From the NCBI GenBank assembly GCA_030539395.1, contig JAUNSC010000020.1, positions 23,230-59,734 of the forward strand: a stretch of DNA of 36,505 bases. The letters run 5' to 3'. Made by a program: the position numbers and the translations under genes. Below, piece after piece: positions 10,473 to 35,419 of this stretch (position 1 is the stretch's first letter; each line of letters starts with the position of its first letter). This stretch comes from Eubacteriales bacterium (lineage in GTDB: Bacteria; Bacillota; Clostridia; Lachnospirales; Lachnospiraceae). Below the pieces are notes generated by a model, which did not search any database, was not told the origin of the DNA, and saw only the letters and a list, made by a program, of their open reading frames with translations.

Positions 10473-10619
10473 ATGGTAAAAGGAATTATTGTAGTGGGTA
10501 TTACTCTGTTTTTGTTTTCGTTATACTGCTGCCTTGTGCAGGGAAAGAAAGAGGATGAGGCGTTAGAAAAGATGCTTCGGAAAAAATGGGAGAATGGCGC
10601 TGGAAAGGATGAAGAGTGA
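10473..10619 (+). CDS. small single-span membrane protein
   Basis: A 48-residue protein starting MVKGIIVVGITLFLFSLYCC, one hydrophobic helix, then a charged helical tail (KKEDEALEKMLRKKWENG). GGAGG at 10460-10464 fits ATG 10473 better than ATG 10458. The stop overlaps the next gene's GTG. Function unknown; the pairing suggests a backbone operon. Confidence 0.6.
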   Translation: MVKGIIVVGITLFLFSLYCCLVQGKKEDEALEKMLRKKWENGAGKDEE

Positions 10620-11179
10620 GCATGGGCAGATCAGGAATTTTAACGAAGGAATTTAAAGGGGATGAGAACACAGCTTACCATGATATTATTGCGCTTTTTA
10701 AAATTTACCGGTCTGTGAATTGGAGAATGCAGATCAAAATTAATCAGGTCAAGCATCGTTTCCAGATGGAGTACGGTACGGATGTGGATTCTTTTCTGGA
10801 CAGTATTTATCAGGCGGGTATGGATATTAACCAGGATCTTTCCAGTGAGAAAGAACGGATAGAGTCTATCAACCGTTCAAATAAGTTCCTGAAGCTGATT
10901 GATGAGGCGGTGGAACTTATGAGGAAATATCACCCGAATGGGGAGCGGTATTACTGGGTCCTATATTACAGTTATATGTCGGCCTACAAAGCGGAAAATG
11001 TTGATGAGATTCTGGACAAGCTGGAGCCGCATTTCCCTAAGATTACGAGAATACACCGGGCAACTTATTTCCGCTGGCGGGAGCAGGCTTTTGAGGCTGT
11101 TAGCGGGATCTTATGGGGGTATGAAGGGGAAAGCGTAAAGCTCCTGGAGCAGTTTAAAAAAAATTACAGGGAGGAATAA
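10616..11179 (+). CDS. ArpU/sigma-like helical regulator
   Basis: A 187-residue protein from GTG 10616, overlapping the previous stop; ATG 10622 is an alternative. The N-terminal half is predicted helical (YHDIIALFKIYRSVNWRMQIKINQ). The C-terminal part, YYWVLYYSYMSAYKAENVDEILDKL followed by RIHRATYFRWREQAFEAVSGILWG, has the layout of a sigma region 4-like or ArpU-type helix-turn-helix. Such proteins act as late-gene activators in phages and elements. It is a candidate activator for this element, by inference. Confidence 0.5.
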   Translation: MSMGRSGILTKEFKGDENTAYHDIIALFKIYRSVNWRMQIKINQVKHRFQMEYGTDVDSFLDSIYQAGMDINQDLSSEKERIESINRSNKFLKLIDEAVELMRKYHPNGERYYWVLYYSYMSAYKAENVDEILDKLEPHFPKITRIHRATYFRWREQAFEAVSGILWGYEGESVKLLEQFKKNYREE

Positions 11180-11294: not shown

Positions 11295-12248
11295 ATGATT
11301 ATATCCGTGGATACAGGAAACAAGATGATCAAAACAGATACGTTGGAGTTTAGCGCAGGTGTGGAGATTATTGACCAGATGCCGGGAGAGCAGGAAGAGG
11401 TTATTTACTATGATGGCCAGTATTACAGGACAGTCAGCAAAAGGATTTCCTACATGGAAGACAAAACGGAAGATGACCGGTATTTTATCCTGACATTGTT
11501 CGCAATCGCAAAGGAGCTGGAAAAGGCGCGGGACCAGGAATCGCTGATTACGAATGGTCTGGTGGAGGTTGAGCTGCTGGTAGGGCTGCCGCCCGCCCAT
11601 TATGGAAAACACCGGAGGATGTTCCGGGAGTATTTTATGCGGGAAGGCAATATCATAGATTTTACTTATATGAAAACACCGTATAAGATTGTTTTTTCAG
11701 ATGTGAAGGTATATATGCAGGCATACGCGGCCTATTGCCTTGTGGCAGGGCAGCTCAGGCTTTCCAGTCTCCCCAAGGTGCTGGTAATTGATATTGGGGG
11801 CTTTACGGTGGACTATATGATATTGCGGTTTGGACAGTTAGAGCGCAGTTATGTGGACTCGTTAGAGGAAGGGATCATTAAGCTGTACCGGGGCATCAAT
11901 GCCGGAATACGACAGAGATACGGCATTTTGCTGGAAGAATCGGATGTTGATAATATCATCACAAGTAAAAATGTAAGGTTTGAGCCGGAATTGATAGAAC
12001 GTGTCAAGGAGATTGCCGCAAAGTATGTGACAGAGCTTCTGGGAGCCTTCAGAGAGCTTGGTATTGATTTTAAAACCACACAGACGGTATTTGTCGGCGG
12101 CGGCTCTATACTGTTGTCAGAGTTTATCCAGGAAATCTGGAAAAGGTATCAGGGAGAATATTTCATAATCAATGATTCAAAAGCAAACGCGAAAGGTTAT
12201 AAGTTACAGTATCTGGCAGAAAAAAAGGAAATGGGGGCTGAAAAATGA
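11295..12248 (+). CDS. ParM/StbA-like actin-family segregation ATPase
   Basis: A 317-residue actin-fold ATPase. Phosphate-1 motif ISVDTGNKMIK is at the N-terminus, phosphate-2 motif VIDIGGFTVDYM near residue 166, and the adenosine motif VFVGGGSILL near 267. Length matches ParM/Alp proteins, which polymerise to push plasmid copies apart. ATG 11295 follows AAAGGAGAAC. The next gene, overlapping by four bases, is its ParR-like adaptor. Its presence suggests the element spends time as a low-copy replicating circle that must be segregated. Confidence 0.88.
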   Translation: MIISVDTGNKMIKTDTLEFSAGVEIIDQMPGEQEEVIYYDGQYYRTVSKRISYMEDKTEDDRYFILTLFAIAKELEKARDQESLITNGLVEVELLVGLPPAHYGKHRRMFREYFMREGNIIDFTYMKTPYKIVFSDVKVYMQAYAAYCLVAGQLRLSSLPKVLVIDIGGFTVDYMILRFGQLERSYVDSLEEGIIKLYRGINAGIRQRYGILLEESDVDNIITSKNVRFEPELIERVKEIAAKYVTELLGAFRELGIDFKTTQTVFVGGGSILLSEFIQEIWKRYQGEYFIINDSKANAKGYKLQYLAEKKEMGAEK

Positions 12249-12583
12249 GAAAGGAAGATCCTTTCCGGTTTAATCTAAGGTTTGATGAGACGGATGAAGA
12301 CCATCGGAAGGTATGTGATTTTTTAAACGCCTGCGGCAGAAAAAAAGCGCGGTATATTGTGAAGGCTTTTCAGGCTTATTGGGGGATGAATGGGGGTGGA
12401 ACTCCCCCAAAGCCGCAGGAAATGATTGCCGGAGGTACACAAAAGGAAGAAAGAACGGAAAAGATAGAGGAGGAAAGGCATTTTGTCAGTGTGGATACGA
12501 CAGAGTATTCTACGGATGACGCGGAATTGTCGTTAATGAGGAAAAATTATCAAATGTTTGATTCGTTTGGAGAGGAGCTGTAA
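12245..12583 (+). CDS. ParR-like DNA-binding partner of the ParM-like ATPase
   Basis: A 112-residue protein whose first ~45 residues (FRFNLRFDETDEDHRKVCDFLNACGRKKARYIVKAF) look like a ribbon-helix-helix DNA-binding module. The rest is acidic and probably unstructured, as expected for the tail that contacts ParM filaments. The start overlaps the parM-like stop (ATGA). Assignment rests on position and this N-terminal pattern. Confidence 0.7.
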   Translation: MRKEDPFRFNLRFDETDEDHRKVCDFLNACGRKKARYIVKAFQAYWGMNGGGTPPKPQEMIAGGTQKEERTEKIEEERHFVSVDTTEYSTDDAELSLMRKNYQMFDSFGEEL

Positions 12584-15571: not shown

Positions 15572-15710
15572 ACTTTAGTTCCTTGTAAACTTTCCGGTGA
15601 GTAGCCTGAAAGAATAATAAGCAGTCTTTTTGGGTCATCGCCCCATTTTGGGATTGATAAATGAAAGAATTGTCTTTATACTGGAAATAAAGATGGAAGG
15701 AGCGATGCTT

Positions 15711-16052
15711 ATGCCACAGACCATTCGTTCACTTTTATCAGAATATTTATCCGCAGTACAGAAGATATATGGTAAACATTTAAAGAGCGTAATCCTCTAT
15801 GGCTCCTATGCCAGAGGGGATTATAATGCTGAATCAGATGTTGATATTATGCTACTGGTGGATTTGACTGAAAGTGAGTTGGATCAATATTCTGATGAAT
15901 TGTCGGAGCTTGGATTTGAATATAATGTTAAACATGATATATGGATGATGCCTGTAGTGAAAAACATCGAGCATTTCCGCCATTGGGTGTCGGCTTATCC
16001 ATTTTATAAGAATGTTCAAAAAGAGGGGGTTATTTTGTATGAAGCAGCCTGA
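15711..16052 (+). CDS. mntA: MNT-type nucleotidyltransferase antitoxin
   Basis: A 113-residue minimal nucleotidyltransferase. The catalytic motif VILYGSYARGDYNAESDVDIMLLVD shows GS, then the DxD pair. In HEPN/MNT toxin-antitoxin pairs the MNT protein silences the HEPN RNase, in studied cases by adding AMP to it. AAGGAG with 8-base spacing supports ATG 15711 over upstream starts. The following HEPN gene overlaps its end but is broken, so this antitoxin has lost its target. Confidence 0.85.
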   Translation: MPQTIRSLLSEYLSAVQKIYGKHLKSVILYGSYARGDYNAESDVDIMLLVDLTESELDQYSDELSELGFEYNVKHDIWMMPVVKNIEHFRHWVSAYPFYKNVQKEGVILYEAA

Positions 16053-16252
16053 TTCTTTGGATGTTGGTACTCAAGTGGATGCAGCGAGGCACCGCCTGCT
16101 GGTGGCAAGAGAAGATTTGGAAACAGCAGATTTTTCATGTTAGTGACTATGATACTTTCTATATTGCATCAAAGGAAGTGACAATGCAGCAGATACAGAC
16201 TGCAGAGCAGATTCTGCATCTGGCGGAAAAATATTTGGAAGAAACAGAATAG
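16039..16252 (+). pseudogene. HEPN-domain toxin, internally deleted
   Basis: ATG 16039 overlaps the MNT stop. The first frame gives the HEPN opening (VDAARHRLLVAREDLETADFSC) and stops near 16141. The HEPN ending continues in another frame (VSDYDTFYIASKEVTMQQIQTAEQILHLAEKYLEE) to 16252. Complete HEPN proteins of this group have about 120 residues; the central ~50, including the helix with the usual Ser-Tyr-Tyr core and the catalytic Arg region, are missing. Toxicity is therefore very unlikely. Confidence 0.8.
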
Positions 16253-16401
16253 TATATAATTTTTCAGGGATATTTGTTATAATTGGTTCTGGACGGTAAG
16301 CGGCAGGCTATCCTGGTATCGAACATGGAAAACGATTGATGTATACATAGGATAAACGGGATAGTCCCGGCGATACGCAGAGCAATGGAATGTTCCGTTT
16401 G

Positions 16402-16451
16402 GGCAATATGGCTGTTTTCTGCGTTGGGCAGAAATACCATATTGCCTTTTT
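16402..16451 (+). terminator. terminator at the end of a structured leader before the deformylase gene
   Basis: GGCAATATGG pairs with CCATATTGCC around a 26-base loop, and five T residues follow. A TATAAT-like box occurs near 16277-16282, so a short transcript of about 160 bases with further stems (for example CGGGA/TCCCG) could end here. It lies before, not after, the deformylase gene, so it may be an attenuator or the end of a small RNA. Confidence 0.7.
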
Positions 16452-16479
16452 ATATGATAGAAGGAAGTGTGAGAAAACT

Positions 16480-16890
16480 ATGGTCAGACCGATTATGAGA
16501 GATGTATTTTTCCTGAACCAGAAATCAGAGCCGGCAACGGAGGCAGACCGACAGGTAGCAGAGGATCTGATGGATACTTTAAAAGCCCATGAGGAAGGCT
16601 GTGTGGGCATGGCGGCAAATATGATAGGCGTCAGGAAAAATATCATTGCGGTAAATATGGGGATTGTAAATGTGGTAATGTATAATCCTCAAATTGTGAA
16701 AAAAACAGGCGCCTATGAGACGGAGGAAGGATGTCTTTCTCTGGAAGGAGTGCGAAAATGCACGAGATACCGGGAGATAGAGGTGGAATATCAGGATGGC
16801 GGCTTCAAAAAGCAGCGGCAGAAATATTCCGGATGGATTGCCCAGATCATCCAGCATGAGTGCGACCATCTGCAGGGAATTATCATATAA
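16480..16890 (+). CDS. def: peptide deformylase
   Basis: A 136-residue protein with the three deformylase motifs: GCVGMAANMIG (motif 1, with the Gln of the usual APQIG replaced by Met), EGCLSL (motif 2) and QHECDHLQG (motif 3, HExDH metal site). Deformylases remove formyl from new proteins; the metal ligands Cys, His and His are all present. The motif 1 Gln normally helps catalysis, so its change is notable, though it is seen in some short clostridial forms. Carried on a mobile element, it could be a spare enzyme tolerant to deformylase inhibitors. Confidence 0.85.
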   Translation: MVRPIMRDVFFLNQKSEPATEADRQVAEDLMDTLKAHEEGCVGMAANMIGVRKNIIAVNMGIVNVVMYNPQIVKKTGAYETEEGCLSLEGVRKCTRYREIEVEYQDGGFKKQRQKYSGWIAQIIQHECDHLQGIII

Positions 16891-16899
16891 GGAGCGCAC

Positions 16900-17127
16900 A
16901 TGGACGGTAAATATAAAGTGATCGAGATATATGAAATGGATTTTGGATGTGAAGAACGGGCAGAGGGAATGGAGGATATGGTGCAGGTTCGCCTTTGTTC
17001 CACTTCAGGGGAAATAATAACGGTACAGGCACCAGACGCCAGTTTATATGAACAGGATATTATTGAGGGAAGTGAAGTCTCTTTGACGGATGGAAAATTG
17101 AAAAAATATTCGGAAATATTCGGATGA
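16900..17127 (+). CDS. hypothetical protein, 75 residues
   Basis: AAGGAGC precedes ATG 16900, nine bases after the deformylase stop. The protein is acidic, with beta-rich sequence (YKVIEIYEMDFGCEER, MVQVRLCSTSGEIITVQAPD, EGSEVSLTDGKLKKY) suggesting a small barrel. No family recognised. It lies in the same run as the deformylase and YjbR-like genes. Confidence 0.55.
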   Translation: MDGKYKVIEIYEMDFGCEERAEGMEDMVQVRLCSTSGEIITVQAPDASLYEQDIIEGSEVSLTDGKLKKYSEIFG

Positions 17128-17144
17128 TGAAAGGATGATTTTGG

Positions 17145-17513
17145 TTGAAACGGGAAGAAATTTTAGAATATGCAAAAAAGGTGTACGGAACAGTGCCGGA
17201 ATACCTATGGAATGAGCATCCAACGTATGCTGTCCTTAGGATGAAGAATACGGATAAATGGTATGCGGTAATTATGAAGGTGCCCAGAGATAAGCTTGGA
17301 ATGGATGGCGATGGGGAAGTCGAAATTATGAATGTGAAGTGCGAGCCGGATACAGCGCGTTCATTATGTCAGGCGCAGGGGTTCTTTCCGGGATATCATA
17401 TGAACAAAGAACATTGGATTTCGATCCTTCTGGATGGAACAGTTGGTGAAATAAAAATTTTGGATTTTCTGGACAGAAGTTATGAGCTGCTTGACAGGAA
17501 AAACCGTAAGTAG
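17145..17513 (+). CDS. MmcQ/YjbR-family protein
   Basis: From TTG 17145, with AAAGGA upstream, 122 residues. Family features are EILEYAKKVYGTVPEYLWNEHPTYAVLR, DKWYAVIMKVPRDKLG, EIMNVKCEP and GFFPGYHMNKEHWISI. Members have a CyaY-like fold and are thought to bind DNA, without a firm role. It follows the 75-residue gene by 17 bases and belongs to the same cargo block. Confidence 0.8.
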   Translation: MKREEILEYAKKVYGTVPEYLWNEHPTYAVLRMKNTDKWYAVIMKVPRDKLGMDGDGEVEIMNVKCEPDTARSLCQAQGFFPGYHMNKEHWISILLDGTVGEIKILDFLDRSYELLDRKNRK

Positions 17514-17568
17514 AGTCATGCGGGACAATATATAGAATTGGAAAACCCGCAAAAGGAGAAGGGCAGAA

Positions 17569-18090
17569 ATGTTATTGACAGTAAGAGGCGATATTACAAA
17601 AATTGATACGGTCAGCGCAATCGTGAACGCGGCGAACACAAGTCTGCTGGGAGGCGGCGGAGTAGATGGGGCAATCCACCGGGCAGCAGGAAAACGGCTT
17701 CTGGAGGAATGCAGGACGCTTCATGGCTGCAGGACCGGTGAGGCGAAGATAACTGGAGCGTATAGGCTGCCATGCAAGTATGTGATCCATACGGTAGGGC
17801 CGGTATGGAACGGCGGCAGCCGCGGAGAACCGGAGCTTTTGGCAAACTGTTATAGAAATTCGCTTCAGGTAGCTGTGGATCATGGAATACGGACGATTGC
17901 CTTTCCGTCCATATCTACAGGCGTGTATCATTTTCCAGTCCAGCTTGCGGCAGAGATTGCTGTCAGAACGGTAAGGGAGTTTATCACTGCACACCCGGAT
18001 AAGCTGGATGTGGTGATGTGGGTATTGTTTGATGAACGTACCGAAGCGGTTTATCAGGCGGAAGTGGAGAGCTATGGAAGAGATAAATAG
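17569..18090 (+). CDS. macrodomain ADP-ribosyl hydrolase (O-acetyl-ADP-ribose deacetylase type)
   Basis: A 173-residue single macrodomain of the MacroD/YmdB type. The ADP-ribose loops are present: [35 protein letters not shown] and [13 protein letters not shown]. Members remove ADP-ribose from proteins or nucleic acids, or hydrolyse O-acetyl-ADP-ribose. AAAGGAGAAGG precedes ATG 17569. It overlaps the next gene. The same element carries a predicted ADP-ribosyltransferase (DUF3990), so a functional link is conceivable. Confidence 0.9.
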
Positions 18091-18550
18091 GATGGATTTG
18101 CGGATCTATGTGGATGCGGATGCCTGCCCGGTGGTTAGTATTGTAGAGAAACTGGCAAGGAAATATGAAATCCCGGTGGTGCTGCTGTGTGATACGAACC
18201 ATATATTGGAGTCTTCTTATAGTGAAGTGAAAGTAATCGGAGCAGGTGCGGATGCGGTGGATTATGCCCTGATTGGGCTTTGTCATAAAGGGGATATTGT
18301 TGTCACGCAGGATTATGGGGTGGCGGCAATGGCGCTTGGAAAAGGTGCTTATGCAATCCATCAGTCGGGAAAATGGTATACGGAGGAAAATATAGACCGG
18401 ATGCTTATGGAGCGCCATCTGGCGAAAAAGGCAAGAAGAGCCACAAAGAAGAATCATTTGAAAGGACCGAAAAAAAGAACCAGTGAGGATGATGAGCGAT
18501 TTGAAGCTTCTTTTGATATGTTGATACAAAAGGTGCTGGAAAACAGATAA
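18074..18550 (+). CDS. YaiI/YqxD (DUF188) family protein
   Basis: About 158 residues from ATG 18074; ATG 18092 is an alternative that matches the usual short N-terminus. The signature [28 protein letters not shown], then [37 protein letters not shown], is typical of DUF188, a PIN-like fold with acidic residues that may bind metal. It has a basic C-terminus and overlaps the macrodomain gene by 17 bases. A nuclease role is suspected for the family but unproven. Confidence 0.85.
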
Positions 18551-18681
18551 ACAGGAATTGGCGTGAAGGTGTGAAAACAAAGCTTTAAAAGTGGCTTTGG
18601 AGAAGTTAAAATATATCTGAACAGTTTAACGTAGTGATGTAACAGTTGATAGTGCTGAAAAGCAGAAAGAGAGGTACAGAA

Positions 18682-19086
18682 ATGGAAGGAAACATGGAAA
18701 GAGTAGTTGATTTTTTAAAGAAGGCCGGTACATATTACCTTGCAACTGTAGAGGGGGATCAGCCCAGAGTGCGCCCGTTTGGTACGGTACATATATTTGA
18801 GGGAAAATTGTATATCCAGACTGGAAAAGTAAAAGAAGTCTCAAAGCAGCTCCTGGCAAATCCCAAGGCAGAAATTTGTGCGTTTATGAAAGGGGAATGG
18901 ATACGCGTGTCCGGAGAACTGGTGGAGGATGATAGAGTGGAGGCGAGACAGTCTATGCTGGACGCATATCCTTCTTTGCAGAAGATGTACGCCGCAGACG
19001 ATGGCAACACACAGGTATTCTATTTAAAAAACGCTACGGCAACCTTCAGTTCCTTTACCCATGAACCGGAGATTATAAATTTTTGA
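18682..19086 (+). CDS. pyridoxamine 5'-phosphate oxidase-like flavin-binding protein
   Basis: A 134-residue split-barrel protein: FLKKAGTYYLATVEGDQPRVRPFGTVHIFEGKLYIQTGKVKEVSKQLLANPKAEICAF is the common pattern of this group, whose members bind FMN or F420. GAGAGGT precedes ATG 18682. It ends the cargo block, just before the transfer-operon promoter. Its substrate is unknown. Confidence 0.85.
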   Translation: MEGNMERVVDFLKKAGTYYLATVEGDQPRVRPFGTVHIFEGKLYIQTGKVKEVSKQLLANPKAEICAFMKGEWIRVSGELVEDDRVEARQSMLDAYPSLQKMYAADDGNTQVFYLKNATATFSSFTHEPEIINF

Positions 19087-19108
19087 TGAGAAAAGAAGAT
19101 AGATGAAA

Positions 19109-19176
19109 TTGCGATACATATGCGTCTATATTGCGACTGGTATGATATTGACATATGATTTTAAAATTTATACAAT
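19109..19176 (+). promoter_or_regulatory. transfer-operon promoter with three 11-bp phased upstream repeats
   Basis: TTGCGA-like words start at 19109 (TTGCGAT), 19120 (ATGCGTC) and 19131 (TTGCGAC), exactly 11 bp apart. TTGACA follows at 19148-19153, then a 17-base spacer and TACAAT at 19171-19176. The same layout, with identical spacing, recurs at 34559-34626. Repeats one helical turn apart next to a -35 suggest cooperative binding of a regulator, probably element-encoded. Confidence 0.75.
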
Positions 19177-19239
19177 GGTAAAGTAAAGTTTTGTGCATGC
19201 GCAAACATGCATGGAGAGCCGCAGAGCATTACATTTAAA

Positions 19240-19269
19240 GGCAGCCATATTGTGTGGTTGTCTTTTTTT
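19240..19269 (+). terminator. attenuator-like terminator in the transfer-operon leader
   Basis: GGCAGCCA (19240-19247) pairs with TGGTTGTC (19255-19262), with two G-T pairs and a short loop, and seven T residues follow. It lies between the promoter and the first transfer gene, so read-through must be regulated or partial. Confidence 0.65.
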
Positions 19270-19298
19270 ATGCAAAATCATAGAGAGGAGGCGGTTGG

Positions 19299-19700
19299 TT
19301 GGCAGGAAAAGTCAAAGAGAAAAAAACGGAAGCGCAACAGTGTTTTAGATCGGGGAACCAGCGATTCGTGCGGGTTCCCCGGTTTGCGTTTATCACCTTT
19401 TTAACAGTTACGCTCTTTACCATGACAGGTATGCCGGTATTTGCGTCTGACATTTTTGGCACCGCAAAAAATGCCATGCAGACGGTTTACACAGATGTGG
19501 CCGGCATCGCAACGGTAGCGGCGGTTGTGTGTGCCGCGGTATGCCTGTTCCTGATGAACTTTTCAAAATCAGGCAGGACAGTGGATGAATCGCGGGCCTG
19601 GCTGAAGCGTATCGTGGTCTGCTGGGCGGCACTGATGACGCTGGGTGCTATCGTGACATATCTGGAAAAGATCATTCCGAAGAGTATGTTCACAGGTTAA
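19299..19700 (+). CDS. VirB2-like pilin or channel subunit of the type IV secretion system
   Basis: A 133-residue protein from TTG 19299, preceded by GAGGAGG. A basic start is followed by a signal-like segment (FAFITFLTVTLFTMTGMPVFA) and then two hydrophobic helices (AGIATVAAVVCAAVCLFLMNF and IVVCWAALMTLGAIVTYL). This matches VirB2-type pilins of Gram-positive conjugative elements. It is the first gene of the transfer operon and precedes the VirB6-like gene. Confidence 0.75.
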   Translation: MAGKVKEKKTEAQQCFRSGNQRFVRVPRFAFITFLTVTLFTMTGMPVFASDIFGTAKNAMQTVYTDVAGIATVAAVVCAAVCLFLMNFSKSGRTVDESRAWLKRIVVCWAALMTLGAIVTYLEKIIPKSMFTG

Positions 19701-19780
19701 CCACTGAAAACAGATAGTTTTATAGCCGGCGCTCTCCCGGCTTTGGAAAGGAGGATATCCTTTACGGGTATGAGTAACAC

Positions 19781-22498
19781 ATGGGCTGGTTATTAGAGTT
19801 ATTATTGGATGGAATCAGGGAGATCTGCTCACAGTTTATTGTGGACATGATGGAACTGGTAACGGAAATGTTTACAGAACTGCTGTCTTGTAACCTGTCG
19901 TTGTTTGAAGAATTGTTTTCGGTAGTCAGTGCCCTTTATAAAAATGTGATCGTTCCAATGGGCATTGCTATATTGCTGCTGATCCTGATCTGGCAGTTGT
20001 TCAAATCTATGTTTGGGAAGAGTGTAAATGGAGAGGAACCAATCGAGCTGCTCATTCGGTCCGCGATCGCACTTTTCTTTGTAGTAGCGGCTAAGCCGAT
20101 TGTGAATTATATCCTCAAATTTGCGGGTACGCCTTATCAATGGGTTGTTGGTACAGAAATTAAGGTAGAGAGTTTTTCGGGATTTGTCTCTGCGCTGGAA
20201 GGCGTTACAGAAGCGTTAGGGATTGGAAAACTGAGCATATCCCTGCTTATGCTTATCATGCAGTTTGTGGTCGCGTGGAATTACTTCAAAATGCTGTTTG
20301 TAATAGCGGAGAGGTATGTCCTTTTAGGTGTGTTCTCCTATACAGCGCCGCTGGCTTTTTCAACAGGAGGCTCCAAATCTACAAATAACATACTTGCCTC
20401 CTGGTCAAAGATGTTCGGCGGTCAGGTTGTTCTGATTATACTGAACGCGTGGTGTATGAAGATGTTCTTATCCGGTTACGGTAACCTGATGGCAAGCAGC
20501 TATGGTTTTACTAAATTTTTTGTCGCCACACTTTGTCTGGTGGGATTCTGCAAGATCACATTTAAGCTGGATTCCTATCTGGCGTCCCTCGGAGTAAATC
20601 TTGGGCGGCCGTCCGCTGGAATGGGAGCAATGGGGCTTATCATGGCAGCTAGCCGGATTTTATCCCAGATTGGAAAAGCAAATGCTGGGGACGGAAGCAG
20701 TGGGCCATCAGCAGGAGTAGAAACATCCGGCACATCCGAAGGAAGTGGTATGACAGAAGGTTTTGCGGGACCGATTCCCATGATGCCGGGAGGAGGTTCC
20801 GGGGCAGATATGGATATGACGGATATGCCGCCTGAAAGCGGATTTGAGGAAAGTACAGAGTCCTCCGGAGAGGGCAAGGACAGTGGTGATTTTGCCTATC
20901 CTTCAGAAAATCCAACGGGTGGCGGAAGTGTATTAGAGGAACTGGGAGTTGTGGCATCAGGAGGGGCAAACGAGACAGGAACGGATTCAGGTATCGATAT
21001 GGGAACCGGAATATCCATCGGAGGTACTGGGGAAGCCAGTGCGGAAGCAAGCTCTTCACAAGATCTGTCAGGCATAGACAAAGACACTGGAGCAAATATG
21101 GATGTCCAGGAAGCCGGATCTGAAATGGATATGAACCTTGCCGGTATCCCGGAATATGATGGACCGCATGAAGGAGAAGCACCAGAGGCAGGTGAAGGCG
21201 CTGGAACTGGAGAAGCGGTAGCGGGTGTTTCAGTGGAAAACGGATACGGGAATAGCAGCGCGGGGATCATCAGTGAAGTTGGAGATTACCCGGTAGAGGA
21301 AGAAACGTTTGACGACACAGGTGAAAGCCCCATGGAACTGGATGGGAACACTATTGACAGTATGGGAAGCCCCGCAAGTACAGAGGGGGTTTCTTATGGT
21401 AATGCGGGAGACGCTTTTGGAAGCACAGGCCTTGCAAGCAGAGGCGACAGTCCGGCCAGAGGCAGGGCAGCGGATACGGGAGCGGGTGGAGCGGCAGATG
21501 CTATGTCAGGAATAGAACCGATTGGCAGTCCGGAAGGCATTCTTAGTGAAATGGGAGCGGATTTCCAGTCTGGAAGGATAGAGCCGTATGGAATGGCAAA
21601 ACCGGCAGGAACAGGAGCTTCAGAATCTGCAGGTGCGGAAATGGGCGGAGCATTATCTGATATGGAATTGGGAGAAAACAGTGGTGCCCTATCCGGAATG
21701 GATTTTGGTGAAAGCGATGGTGTACATTTTGGTCTGGGTTCCGGAGAAAATGGCGGCGCGCATTCTGGAATAGATTCAGGAGAAGATGGTGGTATGCCGC
21801 TTGGTATAAGTTCCGGAGAAAACAGCGGAGCGTATTCTGGCATGGATATGGAAGAGAATGGTGGTATGCCATTCGGTATGCGTTCAGAGGAAAATGGTGA
21901 TAGGTTATCCGGTATTGGCGCAGAAGAAAACCTTGGAATGTCAGCGGGCAGGGAACCGGAAGGGGATGGTGCGTATTCTGACATGAATCCGAAAGGGAAT
22001 GGCGGCATCCTGCCCGGTATGGAAGCTGTAGCCGGAGGAATCGCAATGCCGGAAACTTCTTTTATGCGAGAGCAAGGCGGTACTGCAGATGAAACGGGGC
22101 GAAAAACAGGAGGTGGCAGTCCATATGACGCGGAAGGCGGAAGTGCCGGAGGGCTGAATGCGGAAGGAACATCCATGGAAAATGGGGTTTTTGAAGGAAT
22201 CTCCATGCCAGAGGGAAAAGGAACGCAGGAAAAATCGGAAAAAGGCGAAGATTTGCGGGATGAAGCCGGTAAGCGGCAGGATAATTCTGTTTTTGAGAGT
22301 GAACCTATAGCGGAAATGGAAGGCCAGATGAGCCATATGGGTACTGGACAGGCGATTCCTTCCGGAAGCCAGAAGGGATCTGGGCGAAGGAAACACGCAC
22401 GGGAATTTCGGGAGGTTCCGAAAACAAGAGAGGAACTAAGACGCAGGCAGCAAAACAGGAGTGAACAGAAGCCGACAGACGGCTCACCGTTTGCTTGA
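19781..22498 (+). CDS. VirB6/TrbL-like channel protein with very long repetitive tail
   Basis: A 905-residue protein. About the first 290 residues contain several membrane helices (for example VPMGIAILLLILIWQLF, AIALFFVVAAKPIVNYIL, SLLMLIMQFVVAWNYFKMLFVIAERYVLLGVFSYTAPLAFS), as in VirB6/TrbL proteins that form the inner channel. From about residue 300 to the end the sequence is hydrophilic and rich in Gly, Glu, Ser and Met. It includes about ten 12-residue repeats and ends basic (REVPKTREELRRRQQNRSEQ). Related proteins are usually far shorter. The location suggests the tail is exposed at the cell surface or in the wall. Confidence 0.8.
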   Translation: MGWLLELLLDGIREICSQFIVDMMELVTEMFTELLSCNLSLFEELFSVVSALYKNVIVPMGIAILLLILIWQLFKSMFGKSVNGEEPIELLIRSAIALFFVVAAKPIVNYILKFAGTPYQWVVGTEIKVESFSGFVSALEGVTEALGIGKLSISLLMLIMQFVVAWNYFKMLFVIAERYVLLGVFSYTAPLAFSTGGSKSTNNILASWSKMFGGQVVLIILNAWCMKMFLSGYGNLMASSYGFTKFFVATLCLVGFCKITFKLDSYLASLGVNLGRPSAGMGAMGLIMAASRILSQIGKANAGDGSSGPSAGVETSGTSEGSGMTEGFAGPIPMMPGGGSGADMDMTDMPPESGFEESTESSGEGKDSGDFAYPSENPTGGGSVLEELGVVASGGANETGTDSGIDMGTGISIGGTGEASAEASSSQDLSGIDKDTGANMDVQEAGSEMDMNLAGIPEYDGPHEGEAPEAGEGAGTGEAVAGVSVENGYGNSSAGIISEVGDYPVEEETFDDTGESPMELDGNTIDSMGSPASTEGVSYGNAGDAFGSTGLASRGDSPARGRAADTGAGGAADAMSGIEPIGSPEGILSEMGADFQSGRIEPYGMAKPAGTGASESAGAEMGGALSDMELGENSGALSGMDFGESDGVHFGLGSGENGGAHSGIDSGEDGGMPLGISSGENSGAYSGMDMEENGGMPFGMRSEENGDRLSGIGAEENLGMSAGREPEGDGAYSDMNPKGNGGILPGMEAVAGGIAMPETSFMREQGGTADETGRKTGGGSPYDAEGGSAGGLNAEGTSMENGVFEGISMPEGKGTQEKSEKGEDLRDEAGKRQDNSVFESEPIAEMEGQMSHMGTGQAIPSGSQKGSGRRKHAREFREVPKTREELRRRQQNRSEQKPTDGSPFA
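21647..22024 (+). repeat. 36-bp coding tandem repeats in the VirB6-like tail
   Basis: Units start at 21647, 21683, 21719, 21755, 21791, 21827, 21863, 21899 and 21935, then one of 33 bases and a partial one. Each encodes about G-x3-G-x3-GEN-G, such as GALSGMDFGESD, GAHSGIDSGEDG and GAYSGMDMEENG. They correspond to residues 623-748. The units differ from each other, so they are not recent copies. Confidence 0.85.
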
Positions 22499-22508
22499 AA
22501 GGGGTGAG

Positions 22509-24593
22509 ATGATGCGGGGTGACGAAAGGGATTCCTCGCCCCTGGACGCGGGGGCAGGTGCGGCCGCCCATGCCGCTCATGCCGCGCAGGCTGCTTATGC
22601 GGTGAATGCGGCGGCGAAAGGCGGGACAGCCGCTGCCGGAGCCGCAACAGGTACAGCCCTCGCAGGGCCGCTTGGGGCAGTGATAGGAACATTCGTTTCA
22701 AGTAAAACATTCTGGAAAGTGGTTGCCGGGATTTTCCTGTTTCTTTTCCTGTGGATGTTCATTATTGCGAACCTGATTGGTATTATCCTGAGTTATCTTG
22801 GGTTTGCGAACGCGGATTCTTTTGCAAATGAGGCCCAGTCTGCCCAGTTGTCTAATCTTCGGACAAGGGTGGAGGAAGTTTTTAACAATGAGAAATATGC
22901 AAAAAAGATCCTTGCGGTAATTGAAGCGGAGCGGGATGAAAATATGGAAGAAATCAGGGCTGACCAGACAAAGAATTATGCGGAGCATGAGCTTGTTGTG
23001 GTGGATGAGTATGAGACAAAGCTGAAGCGCAACATCAGCTATTATCTGGCAGTAATGATGGCAGAAAACTGTGATAACGGAACGATGTATTCCTTTTTGG
23101 GGTTTGCAAACAGCCTGGGGCTTGATATGTCAACCGATCTTTCAAGCCCATATGACGCTTATTTTCAGGAGGCGGCGAGAACTTATAACGTGCCTGCCGC
23201 TCTTCTGATTGCGATGGCGAAAGTAGAGTCAGAGTTTAACCCAAACGCGGTTTCCGGTGCCGGTGCTATTGGTATCATGCAGCTTATGCCGGCAACAGCG
23301 GCAGGGCTTGGGGTGTCTGACCCGTATGATCCACGGCAGAATATCATGGGTGGAGCAAAGTATATCGCACAGAATATTGAGCAGTTCAAGAACTATTCAA
23401 ACTGTTTGGAACTGGCAATCGCGGCTTATAATGCGGGTCCCAACGCAGTGGTGGAATATGGGTATCAGATTCCGCCTTATTCGGAAACGCAGGCATATGT
23501 ACAGAAGGTATTGGGCTATGTAGAAATCCAGGAACGCAGGACAACGCCTTCCGCGTCCCAGGACACGGGGCAGCCGGATGATGATTTAGGGAAAGCATAC
23601 GAGATTTTGAAAGAGACCGTGGAAAAGAATGTTGACGGTTTTTTTGCATGGTCCGTTACGGATGAGAGGGAGACAGAATCCACACAGACAGTATATTGCC
23701 GCCAGACAGAGGAAGGACGGCAGGAGATTGATAAGGCAACCTATGAACAGCTTCTTGCTGAAGGCGGCAATGTATGGGAAGAAAGCAGGACGGTGCAGGC
23801 GAAAAGGGTGGAGTATACACTTGCCCTTCTGCTGAACGCGCAGCTTACAAGTACCGGGGGCGGTTACCAGTATAAGTTTGTGATGAATGAGAGTATTTTT
23901 AACCTGGTAATCAAAGTATTAAAGCTGATGCAGGACGGAATAGACGCACTGAAAAATGGATTTTTTTCGTTGTTCCGCTGGACAGACTTCATTACAGGAG
24001 GTACTGGAGGGGAAGATTCCTATCTTGGGGATATAGACGCGACAGGGGATATTATCACTTACGATACAGTAGCAAACTGTCAGAAACGGGTCGTGTATTA
24101 CAACCAGGGGGAAGAACCGTGGGCGAATATTACATATGGCACCAGTACCATTGGATATGCGGGATGCGGCCCGACTTCCCTCGCGATTGTCATTTCCACG
24201 CTGACCGGGCAGACAGTAAATCCCCAGATGACCAGTGCTTACTCCATAGCAAATGGGGAATATGTAAGCGGGGTAGGAACGGCACATTCTTTTCCAACAA
24301 ACGCGGCGCACCATTGGGGGCTTACCTGTGAGCGGGTAGGAAAAGACCGGATGGGTTATGTGGTCCAGTCTTTAAAAGAAGGAAAGATGGTGGTGGAGAT
24401 CTGTGAGGCTTATACCATAACCGGCAGTGGCAGCGGGCATTTTATTGTCCTGACCGGGGTAACGAGAGATGGCTATATCACCATCGCGGATTGCGCGAGC
24501 AGGGAAAGAACCGCGAAAGTGTACAGTCTGGAGACGATTACATCCTATGGACGCGATCTGAGTGAGGGAGCGTTCTGGATTATAGGAAAATAG
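22509..24593 (+). CDS. VirB1-like cell-wall hydrolase: SLT transglycosylase plus C39-like peptidase
   Basis: A 694-residue protein from ATG 22509, chosen because AAAGGGGTGAG precedes it. An Ala/Gly-rich N-terminus is followed by one membrane helix (FWKVVAGIFLFLFLWMFII, about residues 69-90). A soluble lysozyme-like transglycosylase domain follows: AKVESEFN (catalytic Glu near 240), GAIGIMQLMPATA and LAIAAYNAGPNAV. The C-terminal domain has Cys near 553 in YAGCGPTSLAI and His near 644 in GSGHFIVLTG, the C39-like peptidase pattern. It opens the wall for the transfer channel. Comparable elements often have NlpC/P60 here instead. Confidence 0.88.
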   Translation: MMRGDERDSSPLDAGAGAAAHAAHAAQAAYAVNAAAKGGTAAAGAATGTALAGPLGAVIGTFVSSKTFWKVVAGIFLFLFLWMFIIANLIGIILSYLGFANADSFANEAQSAQLSNLRTRVEEVFNNEKYAKKILAVIEAERDENMEEIRADQTKNYAEHELVVVDEYETKLKRNISYYLAVMMAENCDNGTMYSFLGFANSLGLDMSTDLSSPYDAYFQEAARTYNVPAALLIAMAKVESEFNPNAVSGAGAIGIMQLMPATAAGLGVSDPYDPRQNIMGGAKYIAQNIEQFKNYSNCLELAIAAYNAGPNAVVEYGYQIPPYSETQAYVQKVLGYVEIQERRTTPSASQDTGQPDDDLGKAYEILKETVEKNVDGFFAWSVTDERETESTQTVYCRQTEEGRQEIDKATYEQLLAEGGNVWEESRTVQAKRVEYTLALLLNAQLTSTGGGYQYKFVMNESIFNLVIKVLKLMQDGIDALKNGFFSLFRWTDFITGGTGGEDSYLGDIDATGDIITYDTVANCQKRVVYYNQGEEPWANITYGTSTIGYAGCGPTSLAIVISTLTGQTVNPQMTSAYSIANGEYVSGVGTAHSFPTNAAHHWGLTCERVGKDRMGYVVQSLKEGKMVVEICEAYTITGSGSGHFIVLTGVTRDGYITIADCASRERTAKVYSLETITSYGRDLSEGAFWIIGK

Positions 24594-24608
24594 CAGGAGG
24601 GAAAAAGA

Positions 24609-25391
24609 ATGCTGTTAAAAAAAGGGTTTATGCTGGGGGCATTCCTGTTGGCAGGTGCTTTCAGTATGGTTCCGGCTTATGCAAAAAGCGCTGACTCCGA
24701 GCTGCCTGTGATAACCATGTGGCAGGATGGGCATGGTTATCGGGAGGATGGGACACAGATTACCGGAGAGTGGGCGTATGATTCTGTAAATCCGGCGGGT
24801 AAGTATGTCCTGTTTGGGGAAGATGGCGCAGTCATAAGGAAAGCGGAAAGCCAGGATGCGGAAGATATAAGGGAAGACTTCACCGGGACGGAACTGGTTC
24901 CGGCAGTTATAGCATTAAGGGCGGAAACTTTTGAAGGTTTCCATGGGACAATCCAGATACTGTTGGAAGAAAAAAGCGGTATGCGAAAGGAAGCGGAATT
25001 GAATGAAGAAAATTTCTACTCCCTGAACATCTGCGTGAACAGTGGAGATTATGCTTTGTGTAAAGTAGAAGCGAAGGACACCGCGGATTCCTATGTGGCG
25101 GAGTTTTCTTCAGAAGCCGTGCTTCTTCCGGAAAAGGCAACGCGTGTTATGAAAATCCGCGTAACAGATACGAAAGTGGAGCCGCCGGAAGATTCTCTGG
25201 ATGAAAAGGAGCCTGCAAAGCCCCAGGCAGAACCGCATACAAAGCAGCAGGCAGAGAATAAAGAAGGAAAGGAGGGCGGCAGTATGCAGGAAATGGGCGT
25301 AAAAAAAGTGATGGCAATATTTGGCGGCATTGGGGCGGCTTGTCTGGCCGGTGTTTTATTGCTGCGCAGGAAACACAAAAAGTACAACTGA
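24609..25391 (+). CDS. surface protein with signal peptide and C-terminal membrane anchor
   Basis: A 260-residue protein. A signal peptide (LLKKGFMLGAFLLAGAFSMVPAYAKS) leads into a short segment like a wall-binding repeat (WQDGHGYREDGTQITGEWAYDS) and then a beta-rich domain. A Glu/Lys/Pro-rich linker (about residues 188-225) precedes a membrane helix (VMAIFGGIGAACLAGVLLL) and basic end RRKHKKYN. It resembles the CD1107-type element proteins by layout, not by certain homology. It sits between the wall hydrolase and the PrgI-like gene, so a part in mating contact is likely. Confidence 0.65.
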   Translation: MLLKKGFMLGAFLLAGAFSMVPAYAKSADSELPVITMWQDGHGYREDGTQITGEWAYDSVNPAGKYVLFGEDGAVIRKAESQDAEDIREDFTGTELVPAVIALRAETFEGFHGTIQILLEEKSGMRKEAELNEENFYSLNICVNSGDYALCKVEAKDTADSYVAEFSSEAVLLPEKATRVMKIRVTDTKVEPPEDSLDEKEPAKPQAEPHTKQQAENKEGKEGGSMQEMGVKKVMAIFGGIGAACLAGVLLLRRKHKKYN

Positions 25392-25415
25392 GATTAACAT
25401 TGCAGGAGGTATGAT

Positions 25416-25970
25416 ATGTCGCAAAAGGAACGGGTAGATGTCTACACCATACCACCTAATTTTGCAAAGGAAGGGATGATCCTATCCGGAAGAGTAGAGG
25501 CCAGGAACGCCGTAGAAGCGGCAGTCCTGGTTCTTCTTTTACTCCAGATTCTGATGATGCTTGATATAGGGGTAAAGGGAAAAATCTATGCCGGGATTAT
25601 TGTAATCCTTCCGGTAGCGATTTTTGCGGTGATCGGGGTGCAGGGTGAGAGTCTGACATCATTCATTTTCCAGTTTTTCTGTTTCCTAACCAGGCGCAGG
25701 GTGCTTACCGTGCCGGACGGCCAATACCGGTTGAAGCGAAACAGGAGGTTAAGGAAACAGCAAAAGAAACAATACCGGAGGCAAAAGAAGAAAGAGAAAC
25801 AGAAGGGAGGTGGAAACCATAGGAAGCGACGAGGTAAAGGAGCTGAAACAGAAGCTCAAAGACGCGAAGCGCGAAGAAAAGAGAGAGCAGAAAAATTCGA
25901 GAAGGCAGCACAAGGAAGAACGGAAACGGTACAACGAACGCATGAGGAAGGAAACGCAGAGACGCCGTGA
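25416..25970 (+). CDS. PrgI/VirB3-like membrane protein with basic tail
   Basis: A 184-residue protein. The first ~95 residues (YTIPPNFAKEGMILSGRVEARNAVEAAVLVLLLLQILMML and KIYAGIIVILPVAIFAVIGV) have the two-helix layout of PrgI, which pairs with VirB4 in Gram-positive transfer systems. The last ~80 residues are almost all Arg, Lys, Glu and Gln and overlap the VirB4 start region by 161 bases in another frame. PrgI proteins are normally near 100-120 residues, so the tail is unusual. Confidence 0.75.
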   Translation: MSQKERVDVYTIPPNFAKEGMILSGRVEARNAVEAAVLVLLLLQILMMLDIGVKGKIYAGIIVILPVAIFAVIGVQGESLTSFIFQFFCFLTRRRVLTVPDGQYRLKRNRRLRKQQKKQYRRQKKKEKQKGGGNHRKRRGKGAETEAQRREARRKERAEKFEKAAQGRTETVQRTHEEGNAETP

Positions 25971-28599
25971 GGATGAAAAAAAGGAACACAAAAAAATCCG
26001 TGAACAGGAAGCCCAGGAGAGGGCGCTGAAAAAGGAACTCCTTCAGATTTCGCCAGTGGAGGAACGGCAAAAGGCATCTACGGAAGAAAAGGGAATAGAG
26101 GAAAGGACGCGGAAGAAAGAAAAGGAACCGGTTCTGGATCTGCTGCCAGTGACATGGGCGGCTTCTTATCTGCCGGTCAAGCAGGTCAAAAATGGCATTA
26201 TCATTACCTCTGATAACCGTTATGTCAAGCTGGTGGAAATACTGCCGATCAACTTTTTGCTGCGATCACCAGCCGAGCAGCGGAATATTATCTTCTCGTT
26301 TATGTCCTATTTAAAGATTGCCCCGGCGAAAATGCAGTTCAAGGTAGTATCGAAAAAAGCGGATATTTTGGAATACATTGAGAAAATCAAAGAAGAAGCA
26401 GAGAAGGAGACGGATGAACGCTGCCGTATTCTTCAGGAGGATTACGCGCGCCTTATCCGGACACTTGGTACGAAAGAGGCCATTACAAGACGCTTCTTCC
26501 TTATATTTGAGTACCAGTCCTACAATGGGAACAAGAATCCGGATGAAAAGGATGTATTTTTGTATATGAAATCCGCCGTCCAGACTGTAAAGAAGTATCT
26601 TGCGCTGTGCGGGAATGTGGTACTGGAGCATGAAAATGAGACAAGGTTTATTGTAGAGACATTTTATCAGATCCTGAACCGCCAGACCAGTATGAAGGAA
26701 ACGCTGGATGACAGGATACGGAAAGTCCATGACTATTATCTGGAGGAAAACGGGCGGGAAAGTATCCGCCAGATTCCGGTAACAGAGCTGTTCGCTCCGG
26801 AAACGATTGAATTTCGGAACTGGAATTATGTGGTAATTGATGGGATATACCACACGTATTTATTCATTCCGTCACAGAAATACCGGACAAAGGTACCGGC
26901 CGGCTGGCTTTCCTTGTTGATTAACGCGGGAGAAGGCATTGATGTGGATGTCTTCTTTTTTAAGCAGGATAAGACAAAGAGCATGGAACGTATTGGAAGG
27001 AGAATCCGCCTGAACCGGTCTAAAATTAAGGATACCTATGATACAAACAGTGATTTTGACAATCTAAGCGAGTCGATCCACGCGGGCTATTACCTGAAGC
27101 GGGGGCTTAGCGGAAGTGAGGAATTATATTACATGAGTATCCTTATTACAATTACCGGATACAGCGCGAAGGAAGTGGAGTGGCGGGCAAAGGAAATGAC
27201 AAAGCTTTTAAACTCACAGGACATTGGCACCGCAAGCTGTATATTCCGGGAAGAACAGGCGTTTCTCTCGTCATTGCCGCTGCTTGACCTGGATAAAAAG
27301 ATTTACGCAAGGGCGAAACGGAATGTCCTTACATCGGGAGTGGCGGCATGCTATCCGTTCGCTTCATATGAGATGTCGGACAAAGACGGTATCATGATGG
27401 GAGTAAATAAAGCGAACAGTTCCCTGGTGATCGTGGATATCTTCAATACACAGATTTATAAAAACGCAAATATCGCAATTCTGGGAACATCCGGGGCAGG
27501 AAAAACCTTTACGATGCAACTTATGGCGCTGAGAATGCGGCGGAAAAACATTCAGGTATTTATCATTGCCCCGGACAAAGGGCATGAGTTTGCAAGAGCC
27601 TGTACGAACATCGGCGGTGAGTTTATTCAGATTTCCCCGGCTTCCCATAACTGTATCAATGTAATGGAAATCCGTCCGACAGACACAGCGACCAGCGATA
27701 TTCTGGATGGTTACATGGCAGAGCGTTCAGAGCTTGCGATGAAGATACAGAGCCTCCATATATTCTTCAGCCTTTTGATACCGGATATGACACATGAAGA
27801 AAAGCAGCTTCTCGATGAGGCGCTGGTGATTACTTATCAGGAAAAGGGAATCACCCATGACAACCAGAGTCTGGAAGACCCGCAGCGTCCGGGGCAGTAC
27901 CGCAGGATGCCGATACTTGGTGATCTGTATGAGGTGCTGCAAAGAAAACAGGAGTGCAGGAGGATTGCGAACATCTTAAACCGGCTGGTGCATGGTTCCG
28001 CATCCAGCTTTAACCAGCAGACAAACGTAGACTTGGATAATAAATATGTAGTTTTGGATATTTCAGAGCTTTCCGGAGATTTGCTGCTTGGTATGTTTGT
28101 CGCGATTGATTTTGTCTGGACAAAGGCTAAAGAGGACCGGACCGTAGAGAAAGCAATTTTTGTGGATGAGGCGTGGAAGCTGCTGGCGTCCAATGAGCTT
28201 GCCGGAGAGTACCTTCTGGAAATTTTCAAGGTTATCCGCGCGTATGGCGGTGCCGCTGTCTGTGCCACGCAGGATCTGGCGGATTTCTTCGCACTGAAAG
28301 GCGGTAAGCTGGGGCGCGGAATTTTGAACAATTCAAAAACAAAAATTATCCTGAACATGGAGAATGCAGAAGCAGAGCATATCCGGGAGGAATTGGATCT
28401 GTCAGAAGCAGAGATGAATTCCATTATCCATTTTGAACGTGGAAACGGGCTGATATCCACCAACAACAATAACCTGATCGTGGAATTTAAGGCAAGCCAG
28501 TTGGAAAAAGATTTGATAACCACAGACAGGAGAGATTTACAGGAATTAAAGAGCAGAATCCAGAAGTATGGGGCGGATGCGTATGGAAGAAAGGGGTGA
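25810..28599 (+). CDS. virB4: VirB4-like transfer ATPase
   Basis: Up to 929 residues from GTG 25810. That start overlaps its own purine-rich AGGGAGG, so initiation is uncertain; ATG 25942 would remove 44 residues. A charged coiled-coil N-terminus (about 1-105) leads into the VirB4 N domain (LLPVTWAASYLPVKQVKNGIIIT). The ATPase domain has Walker A GTSGAGKTFTMQ near 559, Walker B KAIFVDEAWKLL with Asp-Glu near 786, and the downstream VCATQDLADF motif. VirB4 powers assembly of the channel at the membrane. Only the N-terminus differs from expectation. Confidence 0.9.
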   Translation: METIGSDEVKELKQKLKDAKREEKREQKNSRRQHKEERKRYNERMRKETQRRREDEKKEHKKIREQEAQERALKKELLQISPVEERQKASTEEKGIEERTRKKEKEPVLDLLPVTWAASYLPVKQVKNGIIITSDNRYVKLVEILPINFLLRSPAEQRNIIFSFMSYLKIAPAKMQFKVVSKKADILEYIEKIKEEAEKETDERCRILQEDYARLIRTLGTKEAITRRFFLIFEYQSYNGNKNPDEKDVFLYMKSAVQTVKKYLALCGNVVLEHENETRFIVETFYQILNRQTSMKETLDDRIRKVHDYYLEENGRESIRQIPVTELFAPETIEFRNWNYVVIDGIYHTYLFIPSQKYRTKVPAGWLSLLINAGEGIDVDVFFFKQDKTKSMERIGRRIRLNRSKIKDTYDTNSDFDNLSESIHAGYYLKRGLSGSEELYYMSILITITGYSAKEVEWRAKEMTKLLNSQDIGTASCIFREEQAFLSSLPLLDLDKKIYARAKRNVLTSGVAACYPFASYEMSDKDGIMMGVNKANSSLVIVDIFNTQIYKNANIAILGTSGAGKTFTMQLMALRMRRKNIQVFIIAPDKGHEFARACTNIGGEFIQISPASHNCINVMEIRPTDTATSDILDGYMAERSELAMKIQSLHIFFSLLIPDMTHEEKQLLDEALVITYQEKGITHDNQSLEDPQRPGQYRRMPILGDLYEVLQRKQECRRIANILNRLVHGSASSFNQQTNVDLDNKYVVLDISELSGDLLLGMFVAIDFVWTKAKEDRTVEKAIFVDEAWKLLASNELAGEYLLEIFKVIRAYGGAAVCATQDLADFFALKGGKLGRGILNNSKTKIILNMENAEAEHIREELDLSEAEMNSIIHFERGNGLISTNNNNLIVEFKASQLEKDLITTDRRDLQELKSRIQKYGADAYGRKG

Positions 28600-28799
28600 A
28601 TAGGCAGATGAAAAGATAATGACGGATTGTAGACGCATAACAGGCGTCAAAAAAGGTGTCTATTATGACGCGTAGAAGGCGCATTACCGAAAATATGGAA
28701 ACTTTTTCCTGTTATACGTCATTAAAAGCGCAATAAAGACGCATAATGGGCGCCATTTATAACGGAATAAAAATTATAGCGGAAAGGATGCAAAAACTA
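28600..28799 (+). other. intergenic stretch with clustered GACGC words
   Basis: No gene is supported in these 200 bases. The word GACGCATAA appears near 28631 and 28738, with related GACGCG, GGCGCATTA, AGCGCAATA and ACGTCATTA between them. GGAAAGGA at 28781-28788 is the ribosome binding site of the next gene. Confidence 0.4.
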
Positions 28800-30081: not shown

Positions 30082-30194
30082 CTTAAAAAAGGCGGAAATA
30101 AAGTGTTTTTGAGGGCTGCGGGATATTTCTTTTTTACCCAGGTATTCAACGTATAGGGTATTGTTTTACTTTTCAACCGAAAGGGGATGGAGCC

Positions 30195-31259: not shown

Positions 31260-31298
31260 AGAAACGCCCAAATCTAACTGCAGGAGGGAACTTCTGGT

Positions 31299-32336: not shown

Positions 32337-32376
32337 AAAATGGGATTTACCCAGGAAACTGTTATTTGCGGCGGGA

Positions 32377-34242: not shown

Positions 34243-34244
34243 GT

Positions 34245-34562: not shown

Positions 34563-34626
34563 GAACGAATTGCGACTGTATTGCAACTGGCGTGATATTG
34601 ACATTCGATTCTAACCATTATACAAT
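34559..34626 (+). promoter_or_regulatory. second copy of the phased-repeat promoter
   Basis: TTGAGAA, TTGCGAC and TTGCAAC start at 34559, 34570 and 34581, 11 bp apart. TTGACA (34598-34603) and TACAAT (34621-34626) have a 17-base spacer. The last repeat begins 17 bp before the -35, as in the 19109-19176 copy. It faces the RelB gene and the S1-domain gene. Confidence 0.75.
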
Positions 34627-34786
34627 GATATTCGTAAAAAGAAGGCACATGAAGAACATATTTTATCTGATTGCAGAAGTGTAAGTGTCAGCAGTTTGGT
34701 GTTCGATGACATGATTTTTTGGTAAAAAGATTGCTATTCGCTTGCCGCAAGCAAAATGGATATGCTGTATTCAAGGAGGCGATTTT

Positions 34787-35412: not shown

Positions 35413-35419
35413 TTCAAGA

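Follow-up and report, generated by a model that had tools for sequence, protein, structure and literature searches.

The described systems that come closest to the locus studied here are the late promoters of phages and the antitermination RNAs of conjugation operons. According to PMC13123087, the binding sites of Alt of Lactococcus phage TP901-1 are four imperfect direct repeats at −76 to −32, and the phi13 Ltr promoter loses its activity when its repeat region is deleted. Conjugation control through antitermination by RNA is in print for conAn of pLS20, which comprises the ConAn1 protein and the conAn2 RNA, and for canT of Tn916 (PMC8955417 and PMC11658703). The stretch of DNA that we analysed, called the window, is 36,505 nucleotides long; its first 9 kb or so hold host-like genes and are followed by a conjugative element that runs beyond the window's end. 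To our knowledge, there is little on what prompts conjugative elements in gut Lachnospiraceae to transfer.

The T4SS genes of the element occupy 19299–34242 on the plus strand and encode a VirB2-like protein (19299), a VirB6-like protein (19781), an SLT/C39 protein (22461) and the VirB4/TraG ATPase (25810), with the DUF5697, DUF6100 and DUF6017 proteins and the VirD4/TraG coupling protein (32116) in the later part. The label VirB2-like stands for a weak match below the model's cut-off together with the annotation "fimbrial protein" in a plasmid relative; VirB6-like, ParR-like and ParA-type are our own labels from reading the sequences and carry no family match. The DUF6017 gene contains three imperfect 28-nt direct repeats (31787–31881). 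Cargo genes for a nucleotidyltransferase, a peptide deformylase and YjbR, macro domain, DUF188 and PNPOx-like proteins lie at 15630–19086, between the T4SS genes and a candidate regulator gene at 10616–11179.

Two promoter modules of the same design are found in the element. The first has three words at 11-bp steps (19108–19137, plus strand), namely ATTGCGAT at 19108, TATGCGTC at 19119 and ATTGCGAC at 19130, in front of promoter 1 (TTGACA-17-TACAAT, 19148–19176). Its hexamers are TTGCGA at 19109, a weak ATGCGT at 19120 and TTGCGA at 19131, followed by TTGACA at 19148–19153, a 17-bp spacer and TACAAT at 19171–19176. The second module, also on the plus strand, has the words ATTGAGAA at 34558, ATTGCGAC at 34569 and ATTGCAAC at 34580 (34558–34587) in front of promoter 2 (TTGACA-17-TACAAT, 34598–34626), with the hexamers TTGAGA at 34559, TTGCGA at 34570 and TTGCAA at 34581, then TTGACA at 34598–34603, a 17-bp spacer and TACAAT at 34621–34626. 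Both word arrays are kept in relatives. An earlier note on this DNA had placed the words, their 11-bp steps and the TTGACA-17-TACAAT promoters correctly at both sites, and the 17 bp that it gave between the last word and the −35 hold if counted from start to start. Over 78 nt the sites share 76% identity and form the longest of the direct repeats listed for the window; the promoters lie 15.45 kb apart.

A word matrix trained on related loci with the window left out gave the two sites 30.8 and 30.6 bits. The next-best place in the window, with registers overlapping the sites excluded, scored 19.2 bits within a gene on the minus strand (28756). Maxima in ten mononucleotide shuffles of the window were 7.3 to 12.3 bits, so this one further place also lies above the shuffles; the whole-module model, which was built with the window's own sites, gave it 12.8 bits versus 70.9 and 68.4 for the sites. 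It belongs to a partial word array in the DUF5697 region (28719–28759, minus strand) that has no promoter and looks like chance, even with its score above the shuffles in the word scan. A motif scan of the element and its host had been proposed in the earlier note; when the source genome was scanned with a pattern from both sites at up to 3 mismatches, it returned these two sites only, and the reversed-pattern control had no match in the whole genome.

To follow promoter 1 in relatives, 27 loci were gathered via the N-terminus of the VirB6-like protein. The module precedes the T4SS genes in 26 of them, 20 with the words and six (L030, L031, L033–L036) with changed words such as ATTGGGAC-AAAGAGAC-ATTGGGAC at unchanged spacing. 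Individual arrays vary: L027 has two recognisable words, the first and third words of L012 are 21 rather than 22 bp apart, the middle word of L015 is poor and the words of L021 and L037 are weak. A triple-word matrix exceeded 11 bits at the promoter 1 array in 25/27 loci (the exceptions being L012 and L027), a description rather than a test, since the matrix was trained on most of the loci scored; most loci scored by our matrices and models were likewise training loci. The same or nearly the same element is counted in G028 and G300 (L013), G204 and G301 (L014), G025 and G323 (L037) and G159 and G308 (L021), and site sequences are identical between L013 and L014, L021 and L037, and L023 and L024. 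The site alignment (A3) comprises 27 sites, with promoter 2 represented by plus-strand loci alone.

Promoter 2 is tied to a gene for an S1-domain protein (35409–36452, plus strand; family match and relatives), its conserved first gene. A search for S1-like proteins in the 26 genomes behind the promoter 1 loci yielded 30 loci, and the module stands 51–265 bp (from the −35) before the S1 match in 18 of these: in 18/23 at S1 identities of at least 57%, and in 0/7 at 54% or less. L053, with a 17-bp gap, and L059, which is weak, look like variants and were left out of this count, and no module was found before the S1 match in L050, L051 and L064. With the sequence-only module model R2, two places at E < 1e-6 were found in 11 of 14 genomes, three in two genomes (G312, G316) and one in a single genome; the remaining listed matches had E > 0.01. 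The second place in G046 lies 71 kb from the first, before an S1 gene. Because the operator is common to two promoters that are conserved as a pair in relatives, joint control of the two operons is well supported, and one element regulator for both is the best reading. This shared regulator had been proposed in the earlier note with the RelB-like antitoxin (34742–35092, plus strand) among its targets, and that part did not hold for relatives. The gap between −35 and S1 match in the 18 loci is too short for the 351-nt RelB gene, and tblastn found no RelB in L039–L061; RelB, absent in relatives, is thus not a conserved target, and its gene in the window is probably an insertion that separates promoter 2 from the S1 gene. 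RelE-like pieces in two frames lie 3′ of the RelB-like gene (34742–35412), where the partner gene looks broken.

The motif had also been taken for undescribed, but its layout has a precedent at the Alt late promoter of TP901-1. In a search of the TP901-1 stretch for self-similar words at periods 8 to 23, a four-word array at period 11 ranked first and was matched by 0/2000 shuffles. Its words start at −62, −51, −40 and −29 from TATACT, and those of promoter 1 at −63, −52 and −41, with TATGATA (19141–19147, abutting the −35) as a possible degenerate fourth word at −30, within 1 bp of the fourth-word position in TP901-1. The register depends on our reading of TATACT as the −10 and of the array as the published repeats, and would be 8 bp off with TATTAT, 8 nt further on; TATACT was preferred because it brings the words to −74 to −34, close to the range in print. 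Given this choice, the comparison suggests that the words are laid out as in a phage late promoter. What our element shares with the systems of TP901-1 Alt and staphylococcal Ltr and RinA is an array of direct repeats, at 11-bp steps, ahead of the promoter of a long transfer or assembly operon, and the phage word types ATTGGGAT and AAAGGCAC are similar to those of more distant elements. The locus differs from the phage modules in having two promoters, T4SS instead of phage genes, a near-consensus −35, a leader RNA and a terminator, in the distance of its regulator gene from promoter 1 (8.5 kb), and in that no homology of its regulators to Alt is detectable.

The best candidate for the regulator, and the predicted binder of the words, is the 187-aa protein encoded at 10616–11179 (plus strand), putatively related, if remotely, to the late-gene regulators of phages. 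The protein was found in 16/19 loci, the window counted, and the other three start inside parM, so that the gene would fall beyond the locus edge. Relatives of the protein occur in 33 of 299 family genomes (E ≤ 0.001), eight of them at an identity of at least 62%. The word pattern fits 8/299 of these genomes and its reversed control one; five of the eight also hold a close regulator, and the other three are chance-like. A fit to the leader RNA model was found in 6/299 genomes, all among the eight with a close regulator. Fisher's test gave 1.6e-7 for close regulator versus word pattern and 3e-11 for close regulator versus leader RNA model, values to be read with the pattern and model drawn partly from the same elements and with related elements counted repeatedly. 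Among 29 of 38 distinct regulator ORFs (alignment A1), matches to phrog_36 "transcriptional regulator" (22/29), phrog_248 "transcriptional activator" (13/29) and TIGR01637 (3/29) were weak, at E up to 0.1; those to phrog_1558, of unknown function, were better (21/29, best 1.1e-15). The window's protein matches phrog_36 at E 0.094 and Alt of TP901-1 does so at E 0.005; direct profile comparison of A1 with Alt found no homology. No credible relative was found among solved structures (best E 0.13), and in a phage collection 4 of 50,697 records matched, unannotated faecal contigs at 24–33% identity.

Other proteins of the element invite consideration as binders. ParR of plasmid R1 binds 11-bp repeats, and a pair of sigma-like and HTH_16-type regulators is known as Orf7/Orf8 of Tn916. 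The element has an actin-like ParM gene and a ParR-like gene (11295–12583) with a promoter of their own (TTGACA near 11200) that lacks words, and such genes together with 11-bp direct repeats recall ParMRC-type centromeres. Binding of the words by the ParR-like protein (12245), by the sigma-region-4-like protein (13282/13426) or by the HTH_16 protein (13856) would fit the presence of these candidates in most of the word-bearing loci whose upstream DNA is long enough, with ParM/ParR in 13/19, sigma-like in 11/19 and HTH_16 in 12/19 (a zinc-ribbon protein is found in 12/19), but we regard it as very improbable. None of the ParM, ParR, zinc-ribbon, sigma-like and HTH_16 proteins was found in the six changed-word loci, which keep the module, and L019 has the words with no match to the zinc-ribbon, sigma-like or HTH_16 proteins. 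On this ground the ParR-like protein, our early favourite, was dropped as word binder, as were a ParMRC centromere or operator and the sigma-like and HTH_16 pair. Five of the six loci have a ParA-like gene by our reading, and the upstream DNA of the sixth is short. The 10616 protein is present in all six, so among the regulators put forward in the earlier note it is the one that fits.

More distant elements were examined in 15 stretches around regulator relatives of 43–48% identity. Nine hold T4SS relatives, and four of the six others stop at contig ends; in L105 and L109 no T4SS was found within about 20 kb downstream and 8–20 kb upstream of the regulator relative, which speaks against a strict tie between regulator and T4SS. 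Words of the type ATTGGCAC, chosen after a first view of L102 and L108, occupy the same register in L102, L108, L110, L133 and L134, with scores of 22–27, no more than 19 being reached in five shuffles of each; L134 has a copy of one of the L102 sites. The highest-scoring place of L102 is behind the S1 gene, and the one before VirB2 scores 22. L133, a Vescimonas fastidiosa plasmid found separately via a plasmid collection, has the array ACTGGCAC-CTTGCCAC-ATTGGCAC-TTTGCGA followed by TTTCGG-17-TATACT. The exact-register scan did not exceed the shuffles of the loci themselves in L112, L113 and L116, three of the nine more distant T4SS loci, nor in L118. Promoter sequences are identical in L108 and L115 and in L112 and L113. 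The −35 slots of the distant elements are often poor (TTTCGC, TTGAGC, TTGTGC, TTTCGG; TTTACA in L116), a point in favour of activation. In parallel with the word, the regulator's C-terminal motif shifts (HRATYFRWR, NRSTYFRWR, (F/Y)RTYYRxR), and since word and regulator both track lineage, their co-occurrence is confounded. L100 (G114) and L101 (G132) have no T4SS within the DNA examined and decide nothing. Around the remote regulator relatives L090, L091 and L097, a scan of ten large proteins of L117, L122 and L123 showed host genes and integrases and no T4SS or phage structural genes. L118 (G000:C17) is a second, more distant T4SS element in the source genome, with a 27% regulator relative, a leader hairpin and ATGGCAT words that were seen by eye only.

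Two features that the earlier note had missed separate promoter 1 from the first T4SS gene: a new 55-nt leader RNA element (19182–19236, plus strand), whose two helices stack and whose GGAGAGCC bulge region is conserved, and an intrinsic terminator with a T run after it (19237–19265, plus strand). In 23 aligned leaders, near-duplicates left out (alignment A2), 89.9% of the pair cells hold standard pairs, versus 79.7% in column shuffles and 35–52% when the pairing is slid. Pair cells changed on both sides number 44 versus 14.7 in shuffles, with 0/500 as high. Coarser measures gave a weaker signal, with 10 pairs having a double change versus 7.7 (29/500) and 31 further pair types versus 27.1 (19/500). 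Frequent G-U pairs point to an RNA. Rfam gave no match at threshold in the window, and the sole leader match, at E up to 5, is chance-like. The leader model R1 matches 11/26 sources, all 11 of which were used to build it, so the information lies in the misses: R1 has no match in six promoter 2 loci, five more distant T4SS stretches and L118. Terminators are common in the leaders, with 18/26 at promoter 1 and 13/18 at promoter 2 by a strict test (shuffles 0/520 and 1/360) and 21/26 and 16/18 by a relaxed test (shuffles 17/520 and 9/360); none was found in the window's own promoter 2 leader.

A structured RNA in the 5′ leader with a terminator directly after it could act as a riboswitch or attenuator whose folds exclude one another. 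We think this unlikely. Rfam returned no more than the chance-level leader match, and in 10 loci the complementarity of the leader to its own terminator is no better than for swapped pairs (−6.78 versus −6.74 kcal/mol). Leader and terminator fold side by side in 10/10 loci, and competition between them was rejected. Since conAn and canT are already in print, antitermination is the likeliest role of the leader RNA. The likeness of both to it is one of position: conAn lies, like the leader, at the start of a Gram-positive conjugation operon, but that operon has >20 terminators, whereas both strands of 19200–36505 hold 20 terminator-like sites versus 14.0 (sd 4.1) in shuffles, no clear excess; canT, from an integrative and conjugative element, is likewise a leader RNA that precedes a terminator, but was cloned as a 452-bp fragment rather than 55 nt.

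From the observed geometry of the words, the pairing of the promoters, the co-occurrence of the regulator, the lineage-specific words, the covariation of the RNA and the terminators, we think it rather probable that an activator of the phage late type acts at the two conjugation promoters together with a candidate antitermination RNA, with word binding, activation and antitermination as predicted steps. Stacked on the 11-bp-spaced words along a single helix face, immediately 5′ of the −35, the 10616 protein would aid RNA polymerase at the two promoters and so switch on the T4SS genes together with the S1-protein operon, like phage late genes. At promoter 1 a second gate may follow, where the terminator would halt transcripts unless the leader RNA intervenes and, alone or with a protein, renders polymerase resistant to it. 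The activator is favoured by the occurrence of the module at promoter 1 in 26/27 loci, at promoter 2 in 18/23, and of R2 pairs in 11/14 genomes. Against it stand the promoters of the window's lineage, which are near consensus and would not need an activator, the lack of homology to Alt and the E of 0.094 to phrog_36 for the window's protein, the scores of L112, L113, L116 and L118, the lack of a nearby T4SS in L105 and L109, the 8.5 kb between regulator and promoter 1, and the confounding of co-occurrence by lineage. The gene lies directly upstream of its promoter in L102, L108 and L118.

The near-consensus promoters also allow two other roles for a word-bound protein. Q of phage lambda is loaded onto polymerase and carries it through a terminator. 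If the promoters were constitutive and the protein were loaded in this way, it would carry polymerase through the leader terminator, and the terminator shortly downstream of the window's promoter 1, as well as those at both promoters in many relatives, would be explained; yet no terminator was found in the promoter 2 leader of the window, the −35 slots of more distant promoters are poor, and the relative in layout, that of TP901-1, is annotated as an activator, so we judge such loading improbable. Alternatively, the words could be operators of a repressor that keeps the promoters off until the element is induced. The promoters match the consensus at 11/12 positions, as repression would have it, but the words lie upstream of the −35 and leave the core promoter uncovered, the phage precedent activates and the −35 slots of distant relatives are poor, which makes repression quite remote in our estimate.

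Beyond the activator reading of this element, it is possible, if doubtful, that a broad class of gut clostridial conjugative elements operates its T4SS genes like phage late genes, with a phage-derived activator, an 11-bp array at two promoters and a 55-nt RNA as a third kind of conjugation antiterminator, forming a lock with two keys. If so, the leader RNA would pass only transcripts from the proper promoter through the leader terminator. The use of a phage-late layout for conjugation, the second promoter before the S1 protein and the leader RNA are new, and among the titles of the open-access papers searched none was on ArpU-type control of conjugation. Because the operator is short and readable, the leader RNA compact and one candidate ahead of the others as regulator, the decision to transfer becomes testable in a laboratory reporter host, and control of conjugation would be linked to that of phage late genes. 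The leader RNA is a candidate for a new structured RNA family, and in sequence data the word array serves as a marker for the transfer promoters of related elements. In two of the more distant elements, L102 (at 16764) and L108 (at 16618 of the reverse complement), second word arrays lie behind the S1 gene and are followed by a further leader terminator.
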